Part shown: piece after piece, positions 6,647 through 63,800 of the stretch
Layout: every line of letters starts with the position of its first letter
How positions within the stretch are numbered: position 1 is the stretch's first letter
From: Exiguobacterium aurantiacum
GTDB taxonomy: Bacteria; Bacillota; Bacilli; Exiguobacteriales; Exiguobacteriaceae
Assembly: GCF_024362205.1 (NCBI RefSeq)
Contig: NZ_CP101462.1
Location: forward strand, 2,948,001-3,012,000
DNA: 64,000 nucleotides
Reading direction: 5' to 3'
Notes under the pieces: generated by a model
Told to the model about the DNA's origin: nothing
The model's database searches: none
The model's input: the letters and a program-made list of their open reading frames with translations, nothing else
Program-made: the position numbers and the translations under genes

Positions 6647-6660
6647 TAGCGGTCTTTTTT
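6636..6660 (+). terminator. Terminator of the diguanylate cyclase gene
   Basis: AAGACCGCT/AGCGGTCTT stem with a 3-nt loop and T tail, overlapping the stop codon. Confidence 0.85.
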
Positions 6661-6754
6661 CACGTGAAACATAGATGACGGCACCTAAACACGAACATTA
6701 AATAGAATTTAACAGCAATCATCAAGATATTTTACCTTTTATCGCTATATACCT

Positions 6755-37421: not shown

Positions 37422-37835
37422 ATGAAAAAGAAAGTAAAAGTAGTTGCAGCAGTGATTGAAAATGAAAATCAAGAAATTCTCTGTGCCCTTCGCTCAACAA
37501 ATATGTTGATTCCAAATATGTGGGAGTTTCCTGGTGGAAAAGTTGAAGACGGTGAAAATTTACAAGAAGCACTTGAACGTGAGATTTCTGAAGAGTTGGA
37601 TTGTGAAATCACTGCGCACGAAGTGATTAATGAACATGTACATGAATATGAGACGTTCATCATTCAATTGATTTCATTACGCGCCGAGTTGAAATCTGGG
37701 ACACCTGTTGCGACAGAACACGATGCATTGATTTGGTTAAAACGCGATAACTTACATTCCCTCGTGTGGGCCCCAGCAGATATTCCTGCTGTCAACGATA
37801 TCATCAATCAAACGACAAAAGCCGAGAACGTGTAA
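37422..37835 (+). CDS. NUDIX hydrolase, MutT-like
   Basis: 137 residues, (deoxy)nucleoside triphosphate pyrophosphohydrolase type. NUDIX box intact from GGKVEDGENLQEALEREISE to ELDC (G-x5-E-x7-REVSEEL form). Similar to 8-oxo-dGTP sanitising MutT proteins, though such genes often accompany DUF3427 helicases in defence-like loci. Base composition is AT-rich like the facing helicase gene and unlike the rest of the window. GAGG precedes the ATG. Confidence 0.88.
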   Translation: MKKKVKVVAAVIENENQEILCALRSTNMLIPNMWEFPGGKVEDGENLQEALEREISEELDCEITAHEVINEHVHEYETFIIQLISLRAELKSGTPVATEHDALIWLKRDNLHSLVWAPADIPAVNDIINQTTKAENV

Positions 37836-37855
37836 CCATCACGTCTCGGCTTTTA
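37817..37855. terminator. Shared terminator between the NUDIX and helicase genes
   Basis: AAAAGCCGAGA...TCTCGGCTTTT stem with an inner ACGTG/CACGT pairing; works in both directions between the convergent genes. Confidence 0.8.
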
Positions 37856-40735
37856 TTAATGCGTTTGTTCATGTAAGTAATCGTAGAGTTGCTGATCAAC
37901 ACGTTCTTGGAGGAGCAAGTTCATCGTAACCACCGATAATTCTTGTCCATCTTGATTCAGCATTCTCGTATCTTGAACAGATTCGCGATCCGGTTTTACT
38001 TCACCCAAATAGTAGAAATCTCCACCTTCATCGTCGTCTTTTTTCACAAAAAGATGAATATCGATGTTTCTTTCTTTCGATCTAATAATCTTTTGTACTT
38101 CCTCTGATTTTGTCGTTCTTCTGCTTCGCGTATACCAATGAAACACTTCCGGATTAATAAACGAGTCTCCGTAATTGACGCTAGCTTCAACGTCTTCGCC
38201 TTTATGATACGTGACAAAAATTGGACAGGTTTGATGTTTTATTTTATAGCCATATATCGTTGATTGTTCTTCTTTATCCCAATTTAATAGGCGACAAGCG
38301 TCTTTCCTCGTATACTTTTCAAGTCTGGTTAATGGTTTCGTTTGATCGTATCGTTGACCTCTAGCTAAAGAGGCTGTTAATACATCTTTAAACAACTGAG
38401 TGAACCATTCGTCTTTTAATAAAAACTGCATATGCGATGAAAATTTATATACTTCATTCTCCCATAAAATTAAAGACTGCCCTCCATACTTTAAGCGGTC
38501 AGCATCCTTAAAAAAGTTTAGTGATAATACGTTTTCTAAAGAGTGAATGGTAGCTTTGTCACTTCGTATGCCCTTTTCACGCAAGTGACGAATAAAATCT
38601 TCTTTGTTCAAACTTTCCTGCTCTAACAGAAGTTGCATTAACAATGTCTCATGTACTCGTTTTCCTGATAATAACTCTTGAGTCACCATCAACAGAACTT
38701 TCGAGTGAACGGATGGAAGGTCAGGGAGATCATGCTCCACTATATTCAAAAATGCACCGTAATGCCCCTTCTTTGTTCCAATAACAATTGGATCCATTGA
38801 ATAATGTTCAACATAATCACTTAACATCGGCGGTCGGCCTAAACGGTTTTTCAAATTGTGATAAGCCTCTTTTAACACTTTTAAGTCAGTGAGTTTCGCT
38901 TGATTAATCGATTCGTAAATTCGCTCTTTGGCGATAGCTTCAAAGTTAATGGTCGACGTGCCAGAAATGTAGCTACGATCGATCACTTTTCTCCGAATCG
39001 AATCTTTATTTTGAGACCGGTCTCCAGACAAGGCGACTGGAATCAAATAATTATTTTTGTAGTTAGCAATGAAATCGATAACGGTCACGTATTGTTTCGA
39101 ACTATGCTTTCGTAACCCTCGTCCTAATTGTTGGATAAAAATAATACTCGATTCTGTCTGCCGTAACATGACGACTTGATTGATGCTCGGAATATCAATT
39201 CCTTCGTTGAATATATCAACTGTTAAAATATAATCTAGACGACCCTCTTCCAAATTAGTAACTTCAACTTGTCTCTTTTCTTGCGAATCATCTCCAGTCA
39301 ACGCACATGTTCGAAAACCTCGATGATTCAATTCTTCAGAAAGTCGTTTCGCTTCTCGTTTTGAACTACAGAATATCAACCCACACAAACGCTCTCCAGA
39401 AAAACCATAGTAATCCATCTTCTCTATAATTCGTGTCACTCGTTCCTCGGACACGAGTTGATTGAATATATCAATCTCTACTTGATCTCCACTCACCTCA
39501 AGATCGGTCACCCCAAAGTAGTGAAACGGACATAACATATCTTCTTCAAGCGCTTCTTGCAGTCGAATCTCATATGCAATGTTGTAATTAAACAGTTTAA
39601 ATAGATCATATCCGTCTGAACGTTCAGGAGTTGCTGTCATTCCTAGTAAAAATTCTGGCGTAAAGTGTTCAATAATTCGTTGATACGTGGTTGCTCCCGC
39701 CCGATGACTTTCATCAATTAGAATATAATCGAACGCATTTCGATCAAACTGATTTAAGGTTTCTTGTTTAGAAATCGTTTGAATAGTCGCAAAAACATAT
39801 TTAGCATGTATAGCTCTGCTCGTTCCAGAAAGAACTCCAAAATCTTCTTCTTTCCCACCAATTACTCGCTGAAAATCTTGTTTTGCTTTTTGCAGAATTT
39901 GCTCTCGATGAACAATAAATAGCATTCGCTTCGGTCGATAGCGACGAACGTCAAAAGCGGCTAAATATGTTTTTCCCGTGCCCGTCGCTGACACGACCAG
40001 CGCTCTTGTATTTCCATGCGCACGAACGGCCTCGATTCCATTTAAAGCTGCTAGTTGCATCGAATTAGCTTCTACTTGTAACGCTTCTTTTAATCGATTT
40101 ACTCCATATGAGTCTGGAAATTCAGCTACACGTTCTCCGAAGACTGGTCGATACGAACGTTCGTAAGCTGAAACCCATTCAGGTGTCAACCGGACTGAAA
40201 CATTCCACATTTCTTCAAACTGATCGAGGAAGTGTCCGACAATTTCTCCATTCTCGTGAGAGGTCAACTTCAGATTCCACTCGTAATTTGTCTTTAACGC
40301 TCCAGACGTCAAATTAGAACTTCCAACAATTAAGGAGTAGTACTCTTCGTGTTGAAAAATGTATCCCTTAGAGTGGAATGCCTCAACTTCTGAAATGCGA
40401 ATATCTACATTCTTCAGTTTTAATAGTTCTTTAAAGACTTTAGGCTGATTAAAGTATTGGTACGTTGAAGTCATGATTTTTCCACGGATACCTTTGTCAT
40501 GTAAGTCGGAAAGCGTAGATTTTAACGTGGCTAAGCCAGCTTCCGTAATAAACGCAACAGAGAATAAGAAAGATTGGCATCCCTTCAGTTCGTCTAGAAG
40601 CGAAGTGAGTACATCTTGTCGTTTATGTTTTTCATTCATTAATAATTCAGGTTTAAATGGACTCACGTGATGATGATGCTTATCAATGAACCCCTTTTCT
40701 AACGAATTTTTGAGTTGTTCTGTAAAATGAGTCAT
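37856..40735 (-). CDS. PLD-like nuclease / DEAD-box helicase / DUF3427 fusion protein
   Basis: About 959 residues. Residues ~30-170: HKD-type phospholipase-D nuclease domain with His121-x-Lys123 (EAFHSKGYIF) and GSSNLTSGAL. Residues ~225-600: superfamily 2 helicase with Walker A SATGTGKT, DESH box (ILIDESHRA), MTATPERSDG, DIFNEGIDIP and QQLGRGLRKH. Residues ~790-955: DUF3427 (TRKDACRLLNW, CPIFVTYHK, HWYTRSRRTTKS). The same domain order is known from COG3886-type proteins in defence-rich islands. The gene is AT-rich and probably acquired. GGAGG lies 5 bases before the ATG at 40735. Convergent with a NUDIX gene. Confidence 0.88.
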   Translation of the reverse strand: MTHFTEQLKNSLEKGFIDKHHHHVSPFKPELLMNEKHKRQDVLTSLLDELKGCQSFLFSVAFITEAGLATLKSTLSDLHDKGIRGKIMTSTYQYFNQPKVFKELLKLKNVDIRISEVEAFHSKGYIFQHEEYYSLIVGSSNLTSGALKTNYEWNLKLTSHENGEIVGHFLDQFEEMWNVSVRLTPEWVSAYERSYRPVFGERVAEFPDSYGVNRLKEALQVEANSMQLAALNGIEAVRAHGNTRALVVSATGTGKTYLAAFDVRRYRPKRMLFIVHREQILQKAKQDFQRVIGGKEEDFGVLSGTSRAIHAKYVFATIQTISKQETLNQFDRNAFDYILIDESHRAGATTYQRIIEHFTPEFLLGMTATPERSDGYDLFKLFNYNIAYEIRLQEALEEDMLCPFHYFGVTDLEVSGDQVEIDIFNQLVSEERVTRIIEKMDYYGFSGERLCGLIFCSSKREAKRLSEELNHRGFRTCALTGDDSQEKRQVEVTNLEEGRLDYILTVDIFNEGIDIPSINQVVMLRQTESSIIFIQQLGRGLRKHSSKQYVTVIDFIANYKNNYLIPVALSGDRSQNKDSIRRKVIDRSYISGTSTINFEAIAKERIYESINQAKLTDLKVLKEAYHNLKNRLGRPPMLSDYVEHYSMDPIVIGTKKGHYGAFLNIVEHDLPDLPSVHSKVLLMVTQELLSGKRVHETLLMQLLLEQESLNKEDFIRHLREKGIRSDKATIHSLENVLSLNFFKDADRLKYGGQSLILWENEVYKFSSHMQFLLKDEWFTQLFKDVLTASLARGQRYDQTKPLTRLEKYTRKDACRLLNWDKEEQSTIYGYKIKHQTCPIFVTYHKGEDVEASVNYGDSFINPEVFHWYTRSRRTTKSEEVQKIIRSKERNIDIHLFVKKDDDEGGDFYYLGEVKPDRESVQDTRMLNQDGQELSVVTMNLLLQERVDQQLYDYLHEQTH

Positions 40736-40847
40736 ACGTACCTCCAACATGATTTATACTAAGTTCAAATAATTTCAATACCAAAATTTTATTTTACATA
40801 TATTTCATTATTAGCTTCTGCATAAAAAATGATCAAGGAGGAACTTC

Positions 40848-41399
40848 ATGTCTATGTTCTATCTCATCCGTCATTGCTCGGCCACCGGTCAAGAACCGGA
40901 CGCACCACTCACCGAGGCCGGTGAACAACAAGCACTCACCCTCGCTGACTTCTTTCAAGACATTCCTGTCGATCGCATCATCTCGAGCGACTATACGCGA
41001 GCCATCGCCTCGATGGCACCACTCGCCACATCCAAGCAGCTGACCATTGAAACGGAGCCGAAGTTACGCGAGCGCATCCTCTCACTCGAACCGCGTAACG
41101 ACTGGTTCGAGCTGTTGCGTCATTCGTTCACCGATGCTTCGTTCCGTGTGCCGGGTGCCGAGTCGGGTCAAGAGGCGACGGACCGGATCTTGAGCGTCAT
41201 TGACTCACTCGACGACGTAAACGGTGCGACCGTCCTCGTGACGCACGGCAACCTGCTCGCGCTACTGCTTCAACATGTGGATAACCGTTATGACTTCGAC
41301 ACGTGGCGCAATCTCAGCAATCCCGACATTTATCGCCTCGACATTGTGGATAACTCTTGGTCGGTGAATCGCGTCTGGTCCGTCCCTGCCTGTGGATAA
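40848..41399 (+). CDS. Histidine phosphatase family protein
   Basis: 183-residue phosphoglycerate-mutase-like phosphatase. The phospho-accepting His9 is in LIRHCSAT, the second His in VTHGNLLALL, and an acid residue in SSDYTRAIAS-type context. Substrate unknown. AAGGAGG 8 bases before the ATG. Its last 120 bases contain three perfect DnaA boxes, one overlapping the stop codon. Confidence 0.88.
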   Translation: MSMFYLIRHCSATGQEPDAPLTEAGEQQALTLADFFQDIPVDRIISSDYTRAIASMAPLATSKQLTIETEPKLRERILSLEPRNDWFELLRHSFTDASFRVPGAESGQEATDRILSVIDSLDDVNGATVLVTHGNLLALLLQHVDNRYDFDTWRNLSNPDIYRLDIVDNSWSVNRVWSVPACG

Positions 41400-41410
41400 C
41401 GTTATCCACA
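41276..41410. promoter_or_regulatory. Cluster of four perfect DnaA boxes
   Basis: TGTGGATAA at 41276-41284, 41345-41353 and 41391-41399 (TTATCCACA on the minus strand) and TTATCCACA at 41402-41410 on the plus strand. The last two form a 22-bp inverted repeat (41390-41411). Four exact 9-mers in 135 bp cannot be chance. No dnaA/dnaN neighbours and no AT-rich unwinding region, so this is not oriC; a DnaA-titrating or DnaA-controlled site is likely. Confidence 0.7.
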
Positions 41411-41411
41411 G

Positions 41412-41448
41412 AAAAAGCCGTCTCATTCACGAGACGGCTTTCGTTTTT
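41412..41448. terminator. Shared terminator of the phosphatase and degV genes
   Basis: AAAGCCGTCTC/GAGACGGCTTT stem with a 6-nt loop, A run before and T run after. Confidence 0.85.
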
Positions 41449-42311
41449 CATTTCTCCACAAAGAACATCGAGATGGCTCCGAGGCCGACGTGCGTCCCGA
41501 CCGAGACGCCCATCTGCATGAGGTAAATCTCACCTTCAAAGTCGGATTCGGCTTGAATCTTCGCCTTCAAATTCTCGGCAATCTTTTGATCCGACGTATA
41601 GCCGATGATGACGAAGTTGGTGATGTCCTTGTCGCAGCGTTTGATGAACTCGTCCGTATAGTGCTTGAGCACTTTACGCGTTCCCCGCTCTTTGGCGACG
41701 ATGGCCCCTTTACCGTTCTTCATGCTCATAATCGGCTTGACCATCAATAGCTTGCCGATGATGGCACTCGCGTTCGAGATGCGTCCGCTCTTAATCAAGT
41801 GGTCCAAATCATCGACCGACAAGAAGTGCTTCACTTTCATTTTATACTTCTCGTTGAAGTCGACGAGCTCCTCGAACGTCGCCCCGGCTTCACGCATCTG
41901 GGCGCTCTTCATTAACAACCAACCGCTCCCATGGCTCATCGAGCGTGAGTCGACGATATGAATCTTCACCGTCGAATCGGGATGCGCCTCTTCGAAGTAC
42001 TCTTTTCCGAGCACAGCCGATTGATACGATCCACTCGTCCCGCTCGACATGCAGATGCATAAAATCTCATCATGTCCACTCTCAACGGCCTCTTCCATCA
42101 GCTTCATAAATGTCGCCGGGCTCGGCATGCCCGTCGTCGGGAATTCCGGTAGCGCTTCCAACATTCCGTAAAACTCATCGGGCTGGATGTCGACACGGTC
42201 TTCATACGATTTGTTGTCAATCGTGATGATGAGCGGCGCGACGCCAATCTCATATTTTGCTAAAATCTCATCGGATAAATCACACGTTGAATCTGCTAGT
42301 AATTTTATCAT
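41448..42311 (-). CDS. DegV family fatty-acid-binding protein
   Basis: About 287 residues. DegV signature: LLADSTCDLS near the start, GMPSPATFMKLMEEA, the lipid-head-group segment MSSGTSGSYQSA, VDSRSMSHGSGW, and the C-terminal GTHVGLGAISMFF. Known members (FakB) bind fatty acids for the FakA kinase; that role is inferred here. GGAGGG precedes the ATG at 42311; the frame opens 12 bases earlier. Confidence 0.92.
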   Translation of the reverse strand: MIKLLADSTCDLSDEILAKYEIGVAPLIITIDNKSYEDRVDIQPDEFYGMLEALPEFPTTGMPSPATFMKLMEEAVESGHDEILCICMSSGTSGSYQSAVLGKEYFEEAHPDSTVKIHIVDSRSMSHGSGWLLMKSAQMREAGATFEELVDFNEKYKMKVKHFLSVDDLDHLIKSGRISNASAIIGKLLMVKPIMSMKNGKGAIVAKERGTRKVLKHYTDEFIKRCDKDITNFVIIGYTSDQKIAENLKAKIQAESDFEGEIYLMQMGVSVGTHVGLGAISMFFVEK

Positions 42312-42401
42312 GGTACCCTCCAAATAATCGCCCTCAAATGACGAGAATCGTCCTAGACCACTACGTCGATTCAGACGTCACGATAGGACTTCTCCATTGT
42401 A

Positions 42402-42914
42402 TCAGATATGGAGGGGTAGGTGTTTTTTTGCCAGGCTCGAATATGCGTTTGTTTGCTCGTGTCGAAGCAACCATTCCTTCCGCCAGAGTCCGCCCGCATA
42501 GCCCGTCAACGTCCCATTCGATCCGATGACACGATGGCACGGGATGACGATGCTCAACCGGTTGCGTCCGTTGGCGCTGCCGACGGCCCGTACGGCGCGG
42601 TCCCGGCCGAGTCTCACGGCCAGTTCGCGATACGAGGTCGTCTCGGCGTATGGAATCATGACCAGCGCCTGCCACACGTCCTGTTGAAACACGGTCCCCT
42701 CGACTTCAAACGGGAACGTGAACGCGTGGCGACGTCCGTTGAAGTACTCATCGATTTCTCGATGGCACGTTTTCAACACGTCCGGCGTCATTTCATCCGC
42801 TTCAAAACGGACGTCCGTACGTTCGACGAACAGGATGGAATGGATGGCCGTCTCTGTCCCGACAATCTCCAGAATCCCAATCGGACTCACGTAGTCCAGT
42901 CTATACGTCTCCAT
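42402..42914 (-). CDS. ogt: Methylated-DNA--protein-cysteine methyltransferase
   Basis: Suicide repair of O6-methylguanine, 170 residues. Acceptor Cys126 in IPCHRVIG; helix-turn-helix segment TSYRELAVRLGR. Last gene of a three-gene adaptive-response operon (adaA-like, alkA-like, ogt), overlapping the alkA-like gene by 14 bases. Confidence 0.94.
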   Translation of the reverse strand: METYRLDYVSPIGILEIVGTETAIHSILFVERTDVRFEADEMTPDVLKTCHREIDEYFNGRRHAFTFPFEVEGTVFQQDVWQALVMIPYAETTSYRELAVRLGRDRAVRAVGSANGRNRLSIVIPCHRVIGSNGTLTGYAGGLWRKEWLLRHEQTNAYSSLAKKHLPLHI

Positions 42915-43800
42915 ACAATGACCTCCATAGATAGAATGTGGCGTACGCTTCCCATCCGGAAAAACGTTCCCCGTACAACCTCACTTCGTCTGCCGTCAAC
43001 TTGTCGCTTCGCCCAAGATGATGCTTCAACGCCTGATGCAGACCAGCGTCCGCGGCCGGGAACGCCGTCGGGTCTTGGAAACACTTCATCCGGACATACG
43101 CGGCCGTCCACTCCCCGACACCGCGTAAGCTTAACAACCGTTCATGCATCATGTCGGGTGGCTCGCTGCGCAACTGCTGTTTCGACAATCGTCCGTCCGT
43201 CATTTCCTGGGCGATACCGATGATATATTCTGCTTTCCGGGTGCTGAATTGGAGCGGTCGCAGTTCACTCGGGTCGAGCAGTGCAATTGTCTCTGGATTT
43301 GGGAATGCCCAGTACGTCACGCCGTCCACCTCCCGGGATGGTCCATACTGCTCGACGAACCGTCGTTTCAGCGTATAGGCGAACGAGAGTGTGATCTGTT
43401 GGCCGATGACGGCCCACGTGAGCGCCTCGAACAAGTCCGGGAATCCGATCAGCCGCAGCCCCTCGTACTCTCGGACGAGCGGATGCAACAGTTCATCCGT
43501 CTCAGCCATCCGCGCGAACGCGGCGACGTCTTGGTCGAGATCAAACCAGTCGCGGACGTATCGTTCCACATGTTCTTGCTCCGTTTTTGAAATAATGTCT
43601 TCCGGGAACACGATGACGAGGCCTTGGGACGTCTCCATGATGTCACCCAACAGCAACCGTCCGTCCACATCGAACAGCTTCGAGACGGACGTTTCGCGAG
43701 CGACATGCATCACTTCATCGTTTGAACGTCGTAAAAACTGCAGACATTGCTGAAAATCAAACGGAGCGGTGACGTGAATCTCGAACGATGAGCGACTCAT
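42901..43800 (-). CDS. alkA: DNA-3-methyladenine glycosylase, AlkA-like
   Basis: Base-excision glycosylase removing alkylated purines, about 299 residues. Helix-hairpin-helix LSLRGVGEWTAAYVRMKC followed by the catalytic Asp in FPAADAGL. The N-terminal domain is AlkA-like. The frame opens at 43833, but MSRSSFEIHV at 43800 is preceded by GAAAGGGGGGAGTCG, an ideal ribosome site. Overlaps the adaA-like gene upstream by about 44 bases and ogt downstream by 14. Confidence 0.88.
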   Translation of the reverse strand: MSRSSFEIHVTAPFDFQQCLQFLRRSNDEVMHVARETSVSKLFDVDGRLLLGDIMETSQGLVIVFPEDIISKTEQEHVERYVRDWFDLDQDVAAFARMAETDELLHPLVREYEGLRLIGFPDLFEALTWAVIGQQITLSFAYTLKRRFVEQYGPSREVDGVTYWAFPNPETIALLDPSELRPLQFSTRKAEYIIGIAQEMTDGRLSKQQLRSEPPDMMHERLLSLRGVGEWTAAYVRMKCFQDPTAFPAADAGLHQALKHHLGRSDKLTADEVRLYGERFSGWEAYATFYLWRSLYGDV

Positions 43801-44344
43801 CGACTCCCCCCTTTCGATACGCACTCGGCGCACAGCCCTTTAGCCGTCGAAAGACGCGATAAAAGTTGGACGGCGTTTGAAAGCCGACCTCATAACAGAT
43901 GGCGAGATTGCTCATGTCCGTCGTCCGTAACAGATGGGCCGCCTTGTCGATGCGAACTTTTTCGAGCAGACGGCGCGGCGTCTCGCCTGTCGCCTGGGTG
44001 AACGTCCGCTCGACATAGAACGGGCTCAAGTTGACATGCTCGGCAATCTCCTCGAGTTTGAGCGGACGTTTGTAATGAGTGAGCAAAAACGCCGTCACGT
44101 CGTGGACGAGCGCGCTCGCCGGACTACGGTCGACCTCGGGCTGACATCGTTTGCACGGCCGAAAGCCGGACGACTCCACTTCCGCTTTCGTCTCATAGAA
44201 ATCGACATTCTCTCGCTTCGGTTTCCGCGAGCGGCACGAGGGACGACAGTAAATCCCGGTCGTCTTGACCGCAGTATAAAACTGGCCGTCATACGCCGCG
44301 TCACAGGCGAGCACTTTCTCCCACTTCTCTTCAAACGTCAGCAT
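43757..44344 (-). CDS. adaA: AdaA-like methylphosphotriester-DNA methyltransferase / AraC-type activator
   Basis: About 195 residues. N-terminal Ada zinc domain with Cys33, Cys37, Cys64 and Cys67 (IYCRPSC, PCKRCQPE), which takes a methyl group from DNA phosphotriesters and thereby becomes an activator. C-terminal AraC double helix-turn-helix (LEEIAEHVNLSPFYVERTFTQATG, AICYEVGFQTPSNFYRVFRRLKG). It should activate its own operon with the alkA-like and ogt genes. GGGGGTGG precedes the ATG at 44344; the frame opens at 44392. Confidence 0.92.
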   Translation of the reverse strand: MLTFEEKWEKVLACDAAYDGQFYTAVKTTGIYCRPSCRSRKPKRENVDFYETKAEVESSGFRPCKRCQPEVDRSPASALVHDVTAFLLTHYKRPLKLEEIAEHVNLSPFYVERTFTQATGETPRRLLEKVRIDKAAHLLRTTDMSNLAICYEVGFQTPSNFYRVFRRLKGCAPSAYRKGGVDESLIVRDSRHRSV

Positions 44345-44479
44345 CTCAGCCACCCCCTTTTGTTTCACTGTAGCAGATTGATTTTCGTTCACTCGTCCTG
44401 TTTCTTGCGCTTACAGTCTACATTCCCGCGATTCACGAATCTCATTGATTTTGAATCCGTCTTCGCTTCTGACTCGTAC

Positions 44480-63331: not shown

Positions 63332-63800
63332 GTTTGTACTTGTCTAATAGTGTCTTCGGGATATGGCAGTAATCATCCGGGCATCGCGCGAGCCGGTCTT
63401 GATGCTCGTCCGCGCTTCGGATGTAGTTCGTGAGCGGCAACACTTCGAGTGCGATCCGGTCGACATCGTTCCGTCTGTGGATAAACGCACGGGCCGCATC
63501 CACATGGTGAAGATCCTCGCTATAGACGCCGGTCCGATATTTCTCCCCGACGTCCTCGCCTTGACGGTTGACGCTGTATGGGTCGATGATTTCAAACAAG
63601 TAATCCATCAGTTCATCCATCGTGACGATGTTTGGGTCAAACGTCGTTTTGACGCATTCCACGTAGCCATCATATTTTCCATCGAGCGAATCCGTCGTCC
63701 CATTCGCTCGCCCCGCTTCTGTCTCGACGACGCCCGGTAACGTCTTGATGAACGCCTGCACGCCCCAGAGACAACCTCCCGCTAGATATACAGTTTGCAT
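63327..63800 (-). CDS. msrA: Peptide methionine sulfoxide reductase MsrA
   Basis: Reduces methionine-S-sulfoxide in proteins, 157 residues, single-domain MsrA without fused MsrB. Catalytic Cys10 in GGCLWGVQ (the usual GGCFWG with Phe replaced by Leu), then GYVECVKTTFDP and DPYSVNRQGEDVGEKYRTGVY. Its stop lies inside the convergent terminator. AAAAGGGGAG precedes the ATG. Confidence 0.92.
   Translation of the reverse strand: MQTVYLAGGCLWGVQAFIKTLPGVVETEAGRANGTTDSLDGKYDGYVECVKTTFDPNIVTMDELMDYLFEIIDPYSVNRQGEDVGEKYRTGVYSEDLHHVDAARAFIHRRNDVDRIALEVLPLTNYIRSADEHQDRLARCPDDYCHIPKTLLDKYKQ

Follow-up and report, generated by a model that had tools for sequence, protein, structure and literature searches.

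We identified a compact group of DnaA boxes, here called cluster A, at the 3′ end of a phosphatase gene within the window, the whole 64-kb stretch of DNA that was analysed (G000:C1:2948001-3012000, from a chromosome of 3,043,125 bases or 3.04 Mb). Comparison of its sequence across related genomes suggests that cluster A is an oriC-proximal cluster of the DnaA-box cluster (DBC) type, that it was gained once in a gene that is itself dispensable, and that it is held there by selection for DnaA binding. We put the probability of this reading at about two in three. The features concerned are listed below in window coordinates.

40848..41399, + strand: histidine phosphatase superfamily (branch 1) gene, 183 aa, Pfam His_Phos_1 at E 5.9e-26, carrying boxes 1-3
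41276..41284, - strand: DnaA box 1, an exact TTATCCACA lying within the phosphatase reading frame
41345..41353, - strand: DnaA box 2, exact, likewise within the phosphatase reading frame, at a distance of 69 bp from box 1
41391..41399, - strand: DnaA box 3, exact, forming the last two phosphatase residues and the TAA stop
41402..41410, + strand: DnaA box 4, exact, in the intergenic space and in inverted orientation to box 3
41391..41410, no strand: palindrome of boxes 3 and 4, TGTGGATAACGTTATCCACA, perfect, 20 bp, boxes 11 bp apart
41414..41441, no strand: intrinsic-terminator-like hairpin between the convergent phosphatase and DegV genes, listed on the + strand
41448..42323, - strand: DegV-family gene, convergent with the phosphatase gene, Pfam DegV at E 8.6e-76 and NCBIfam TIGR00762 above cut-off
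41452..41460, + strand: DnaA-like site TTCTCCACA, one mismatch, possibly chance

A preliminary description of this DNA had reported four perfect DnaA boxes in 135 bp, the last pair being an inverted repeat over the phosphatase stop codon. Our scan of the 64-kb window reproduced both observations: exact TTATCCACA occurs here four times (n = 4), at 41276 (-), 41345 (-), 41391 (-) and 41402 (+), with positions and strands as reported, and the TAA stop (41397-41399) falls within box 3, one arm of the perfect 20-bp palindrome. A fifth exact box, which is solitary, lies at window 63476-63484. In the reading frame of the phosphatase, box 1 covers the third base of a His/Tyr codon followed by Val-Asp-Asn, and box 2 covers the third base of an Ile/Val codon followed by the same three residues. 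Dinucleotide-preserving shuffles of the window yielded on average 0.26 copies of TTATCCACA per window and reached the observed five in 0 of 100 cases. By a Poisson estimate, four boxes in 135 bp are expected 2.8e-10 times per genome at the shuffle rate, and 1.9e-9 times at the observed density of 20 boxes outside oriC. The boxes are thus clustered outside oriC well above chance.

The cluster lies outside oriC, as previously stated, yet merely 53.6 kb to its left in G000, the genome of the window. In the 8 of the 12 cluster-bearing genomes for which the positions of cluster A and oriC were both listed on one contig, this distance ranges from 46.5 to 64.9 kb, an oriC-proximal position. G000 contains 32 exact TTATCCACA boxes, compared to 5 matches for the reversed pattern that served as a control. 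Twelve of the boxes make up its oriC, which is bipartite like that of B. subtilis: nine are located upstream of dnaA (C1:3042654-3043065) and three (C1:1446-1617) in the dnaA-dnaN interval or in the beginning of dnaN, the two genes (G000:C1:1-2756) being recognised from their translations. The remaining 20 lie outside oriC, and nine of them fall into three clusters, all to the left of oriC: cluster A with four boxes at 53.6 kb, cluster B at rlmH with two exact boxes at 26.7 kb, and cluster C at an S66 gene with three boxes at 222 kb. We found no AT-rich element at cluster A; no 30-bp stretch within 40980-41700 falls below a G+C content of 0.30, a minimum equal to the window-wide median of such values, compared to 0.07 in the dnaA-dnaN gap. 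The earlier remark that dnaA, dnaN and an unwinding element are missing here was correct, the element being absent as judged by base composition. A secondary replication origin was rejected, since the AT-rich element and the dnaA/dnaN context are both absent at the cluster.

The palindrome links cluster A to oriC in sequence. In G000 its second copy is formed by the two exact oriC boxes nearest to dnaA (G000:C1:3043046-3043065), and 7 of the 12 genomes with the palindrome at cluster A hold a second copy; all 5 of these second copies whose place was checked (G000, G007, G010, G014 and G017) lie in the oriC array. Across the 38 genomes of the family the palindrome is present in 29, namely all 12 of the clade and 17 of the 19 sister-genus genomes; in one of the sister-genus genomes (G019) the single copy lies within the oriC array.

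We sought the phosphatase in 19 genomes of the genus, whose five named relatives are all Exiguobacterium. A search for the cluster at the same place in related genomes had been proposed as a check, and cluster A was found there in 12 of the 19. Within this clade the palindrome (boxes 3 and 4) is exact in 12 of 12 genomes, box 2 in 11 of 12 and box 1 in 10 of 12. Box 1 of G008 carries one mismatch, and in G018 a 69-bp in-frame deletion (23 codons) merges boxes 1 and 2 and leaves three boxes. This deletion in the phosphatase gene (L025) extends exactly from one TGTGGATAAC direct repeat, in box 1, to the other, in box 2, as replication slippage would produce. The preliminary description had named loss of boxes in close relatives that keep the coding sequence as evidence against its reading; this was seen, in part, only for box 1 of G008.

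Outside the clade, five genus genomes have the phosphatase gene and show no box in the 3.5-kb locus, even at one mismatch; these relatives are more diverged (60-65% protein identity) and probably never had boxes. Two others, G003 and G013, yielded only distant phosphatase matches, and beside the DegV gene both retain a 3′-end remnant with no exact box. At 16 phosphatase loci of the sister genus (42-52% identity) no exact box was present within 1.5 kb on each side, and 2 of the 16 had a single one-mismatch match; three further sister-genus genomes gave only weaker phosphatase matches and are not among the 16 loci. Since cluster A is lacking in 7 of the 19 genomes of the genus and at the 16 loci examined in the sister genus, it is inessential to the family.

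We used two trees to place the origin of the cluster. On an unrooted DegV DNA tree of 19 rows, the 12 genomes with boxes lie on one side of a branch with support of 100/99, and box presence requires 1 change, compared to 5.9 in shuffles. None of the four sister-genus genomes tried contained a close DegV orthologue, the best match being 33% identical. The second tree, of phosphatase proteins with the box columns removed, was rooted on the sister genus and had 21 rows (16 from the genus and 5 of the 16 sister-genus loci, with the interrupted gene of G005 left out). It also requires one change, but the box clade is weakly supported (71/91) and appears in 70% of bootstrap trees. When the DegV tree is rooted at its midpoint, G003 groups with the box clade, although this genome lacks cluster A, the S66 pattern and an intact phosphatase. 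A single gain of cluster A appears to fit the trees best, and it is simpler than repeated loss because boxes are absent from the outgroup loci, from the clade without them and from G003 alike.

To separate constraint on the DNA from constraint on the protein, we compared codons in 11 clade genomes; G018 was left out, as its deletion removes the region. Among 100 codon columns with an invariant amino acid and synonymous choices, 7 lie in boxes and 93 elsewhere. The codon itself is invariant in 7 of the 7 box columns and in 11 of the 93 others (hypergeometric P about 2e-6), and without the two palindrome codons the P value is 6e-5. The seven do not include the Asn codon of box 1, because G008, which has the mismatch in this box, encodes Tyr there. 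In boxes 1 and 2, Asp is written GAT in 11 of 11 genomes, whereas GAC is commoner over the gene as a whole (119 to 66, box codons included). All 20 columns of the palindrome are invariant in the 12 genomes, including its 11 non-coding bases. The conservation of the cluster across the clade exceeds what the protein needs, although protein constraint could contribute part of the invariance of boxes 1 and 2, both being coding. These box codons, together with the 2.8e-10 clumps expected per genome, bear out the earlier claim that the cluster is beyond chance and selected, and point to maintenance at the level of the DNA.

The boxes also outlast an intact phosphatase. In G005 an in-frame TGA lies upstream of the conserved THGN motif and all four boxes are kept; this nonsense codon comes from one unverified assembly and could be a sequencing error. 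The G018 deletion is a second such case. Might the boxes nevertheless be a relic, which arose once by chance or perhaps through copying of the oriC pair, and has survived only through common descent and protein constraint? The 12 box genomes do form one side of a branch, their sequences are related, and the mismatch in box 1 of G008 also speaks for this scenario. Columns with an invariant amino acid, however, vary in codon at 82 of 93 positions elsewhere in the gene and at 0 of 7 in the boxes, and the non-coding half of the palindrome is invariant too. We regard a relic as the least probable of the explanations considered here.

The palindrome could alternatively serve as an RNA hairpin, either a terminator or a stabiliser of the mRNA 3′ end, with its match to DnaA boxes being incidental. 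The end of the transcript indeed folds into two hairpins, one of which is the palindrome (81 nt, MFE -31.4 kcal/mol, z -7.75). However, the palindrome is identical in 12 of 12 genomes without any compensatory change, whereas the adjacent terminator differs between genomes in the sequence and length of its loop and in one pair of its stem, and seven relatives that lack the palindrome still show the inverted repeat of the terminator when inspected by eye. A hairpin also leaves boxes 1 and 2 unexplained, as well as the fact that oriC of G000 contains the identical palindrome. We therefore rejected a function as RNA hairpin only, since the sequence folds well but is frozen, and consider the hairpin explanation in general very improbable.

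The gene context also bears on a possible role in transcription. The phosphatase gene reached no cut-off in NCBIfam. In a consensus promoter scan of 40700-42500 we found 4 promoter-like sites, none of which was at the boxes, and the boxes are located at the 3′ ends of two convergent genes, not at the promoter of a neighbour. Regulation of the neighbouring genes by DnaA, which had been offered as an alternative in the preliminary description, is on these grounds less likely. It might take the form of DnaA blocking RNA polymerase at the 3′ end of the phosphatase gene or of the DegV gene, with titration as a side effect. The boxes abut the terminator between these genes, and the available text of PMC4447404 reports that several genes at B. 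subtilis clusters are apparently repressed by DnaA. The same text places the strong gcp/ydiF cluster of B. subtilis downstream of both of its genes, making promoter control unlikely there (PMC4447404, in the part available). This position resembles the gene-end location of cluster A, where promoter-like sites are absent and all boxes remain in G005 with its interrupted phosphatase. Transcriptional control as the main function is unlikely.

The wider neighbourhood holds several features of its own. The interval between mqo and the phosphatase gene (window 37422-40750) contains a NUDIX gene, matched by PDC-S07 of PADLOC, and a PLD/helicase/DUF3427 gene, matched by mREase_IV of PADLOC (E 1.9e-282). 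This pair looks like a polymorphic defence cassette, because the gene adjoining the phosphatase is the helicase in 6 of 17 genus loci and mqo in the other 11. Hitch-hiking of the boxes with the cassette was rejected, because the 6 of 17 loci with the adjoining helicase include G009, which has no boxes, and because the helicase is absent from the 1.5-kb flank in 7 of the 12 box-bearing loci. On the other side, window 42402-44392 carries an alkylation-repair run consisting of a methylguanine methyltransferase, an AlkA-like glycosylase and an Ada-type regulator. Far from these genes, window 6656-6671 holds a parS-like sequence, TTTTTCACGTGAAACA, that has a single mismatch. It is the sole such match in the window and lies 35 kb from the box cluster, at which we found no parS; at up to 3 mismatches (<=3) the number of parS-like sites in the window is at chance level.

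Cluster A is one of several DnaA-box clusters in these genomes. Cluster B is situated upstream of rlmH (G000:C1:3016250-3016590, L039:4250-4590) and consists of two exact boxes and several one-mismatch sites. Its core pattern TTATCCACAGAGTTATCCACA occurs in 38 of 38 family genomes. By tblastn, every one of the 24 loci checked has rlmH next to the pattern (the 19 of the genus and L108, L110, L111, L114 and L138 of the sister genus), while the other 14 of the 38 loci were identified by the identical 21-bp pattern alone. In the 12 genomes measured, cluster B is 25.7-26.7 kb from oriC. It shares with cluster A the box sequence, the position left of oriC and a conserved spacing, and differs in that its core is in all 38 family genomes whereas cluster A is confined to one clade. 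We take rlmH to be the gene called yydA in B. subtilis. The rlmH cluster is probably far older than cluster A, because its core is present in 38 of 38 genomes and a B. subtilis cluster lies at the same gene, and it is possibly an ancient control site of the Bacillales.

Cluster C (G000:C1:2821142-2821221, L041:8142-8221) comprises three exact boxes before and inside the start of an LD-carboxypeptidase S66 gene, identified by Pfam in G000 only. In 18 of the 19 genus genomes, two inverted boxes are exactly 26 bp apart, with a spacer that drifts in sequence. The third box is exact in 14 of the 18 and, in G000, is coding and lies just after the ATG; coding DnaA boxes in the genus are therefore not unique to cluster A. 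In the sister genus, G019 has two extra clusters, at L136:6251-6371 (about 127 kb from oriC) and at L137:5936-5988 (about 104 kb). They are located at a DEAD-box helicase and between the genes for a NUDIX protein and for a methyltransferase. The NUDIX/DUF3427-helicase neighbour in G019 resembles the cassette beside cluster A, perhaps by coincidence.

The third box at rlmH differs between genomes with and without cluster A. It is exact in 6 of 7 genomes that lack cluster A (G003 has TGTGGACAA) compared to 1 of 12 that carry it (G014), the other 11 having TGTGGATAG. A speculative and rather doubtful explanation is that the genus keeps a roughly fixed DnaA-binding capacity left of oriC through turnover of clusters, and that the gain of cluster A let another site weaken. 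The extra clusters of G019, which differ from those of the genus, are a further observation on which this idea draws. G003, in which only the rlmH pair is left, fits it poorly. If the idea were true, stabilising selection would act on the summed DnaA titration and would leave its mark even in coding sequence.

Under the DnaA-sink reading, DnaA would bind all four boxes, and the palindrome would be the strongest unit. Replication forks usually move at 0.5-1 kb per second, at which cluster A would be copied within roughly one to two minutes of initiation. Since it is about 54 kb from oriC, early duplication after initiation would double the local DnaA sink, reduce free DnaA and thereby delay re-initiation. 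Cluster A may act in this jointly with the rlmH (27 kb) and S66 (222 kb) clusters. Binding, titration and an effect on timing are inferred for cluster A from its DNA. A gene for YabA, which regulates DnaA in B. subtilis, is present in G000. Evidence against simple titration comes from B. subtilis, where about 10-fold overproduction of DnaA in an otherwise wild-type strain gave no over-initiation, as far as the available text of PMC13220808 reports. We consider transcriptional control, an RNA hairpin, a datA/DARS-like activity and relic status each to be less likely than the DnaA sink.

Among the loci of E. coli, datA resembles cluster A as a DnaA-box locus outside oriC that lowers the amount of available active DnaA, as cluster A would. 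DARS1 and DARS2 are likewise control loci outside oriC that bind DnaA, a property that we predict for cluster A, and DARS2 also uses Fis. A cluster of the datA/DARS kind would change the nucleotide state of DnaA through ATP hydrolysis or ADP release, beyond sequestering it, and the palindromic pair 11 bp apart together with two further boxes could in principle hold an ordered DnaA oligomer. However, datA as described in the available part of PMC5295017 is about 1 kb long with five boxes, promotes hydrolysis of DnaA-ATP and needs IHF for its action. DARS1 and DARS2 have reactivation of ADP-DnaA as their own feature (PMC4585315, in the accessible part). In B. subtilis, the nearest model, IHF, Hda, datA and DARS are all absent according to the accessible portion of PMC13220808. 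A catalytic role of cluster A is very unlikely, and the analogy with datA/DARS drawn in the preliminary description gains no support from this analysis.

The importance of DnaA-box clusters in Firmicutes is unsettled. Cluster A arose inside a gene, its appearance can be located on a tree, and it was then frozen at synonymous sites across a clade. This amounts to evolutionary evidence for the importance of such clusters, and the existence of related clades that carry or lack cluster A offers a natural comparison for testing titration models of initiation. The rlmH cluster, which shares its gene with a cluster of B. subtilis, is a candidate for an old, conserved site of initiation control in the Bacillales. 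A literature search on Exiguobacterium with DnaA box or replication origin returned, as judged by titles, no report on DnaA boxes.

The six strongest DnaA-binding regions outside oriC in B. subtilis are presumably the six DBCs of Okumura 2012. In vitro, the eight strongest DnaA-binding regions of this species are the two parts of oriC and six regions elsewhere, namely ywcI/vpr, gcp/ydiF, trmE/jag, ywlC/ywlB, yqeG/sda and yydA/yyzF, where the yydA cluster spans the yyzF coding sequence (PMC4447404, in the text available). The B. subtilis clusters are said to sequester DnaA in the accessible part of PMC11019786. Deletion of all six causes early initiation, an effect that is strong only with all six gone, according to the available portions of PMC5295017 and PMC13220808; the former, a review, takes the view that no B. 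subtilis cluster has a significant role. Like cluster A, these DBCs, as far as the sources describe them, lie outside oriC and pack several DnaA boxes into little sequence. A phosphatase/DegV pair is described at none of the six, and cluster A further differs in that three of its four boxes are coding, one of them forms a stop codon and the whole is limited to one clade. In conclusion, the analogy with the B. subtilis DnaA-box clusters drawn in the preliminary description is supported at the level of sequence by DNA that is oriC-proximal and conserved within a clade, and by a second cluster at rlmH.
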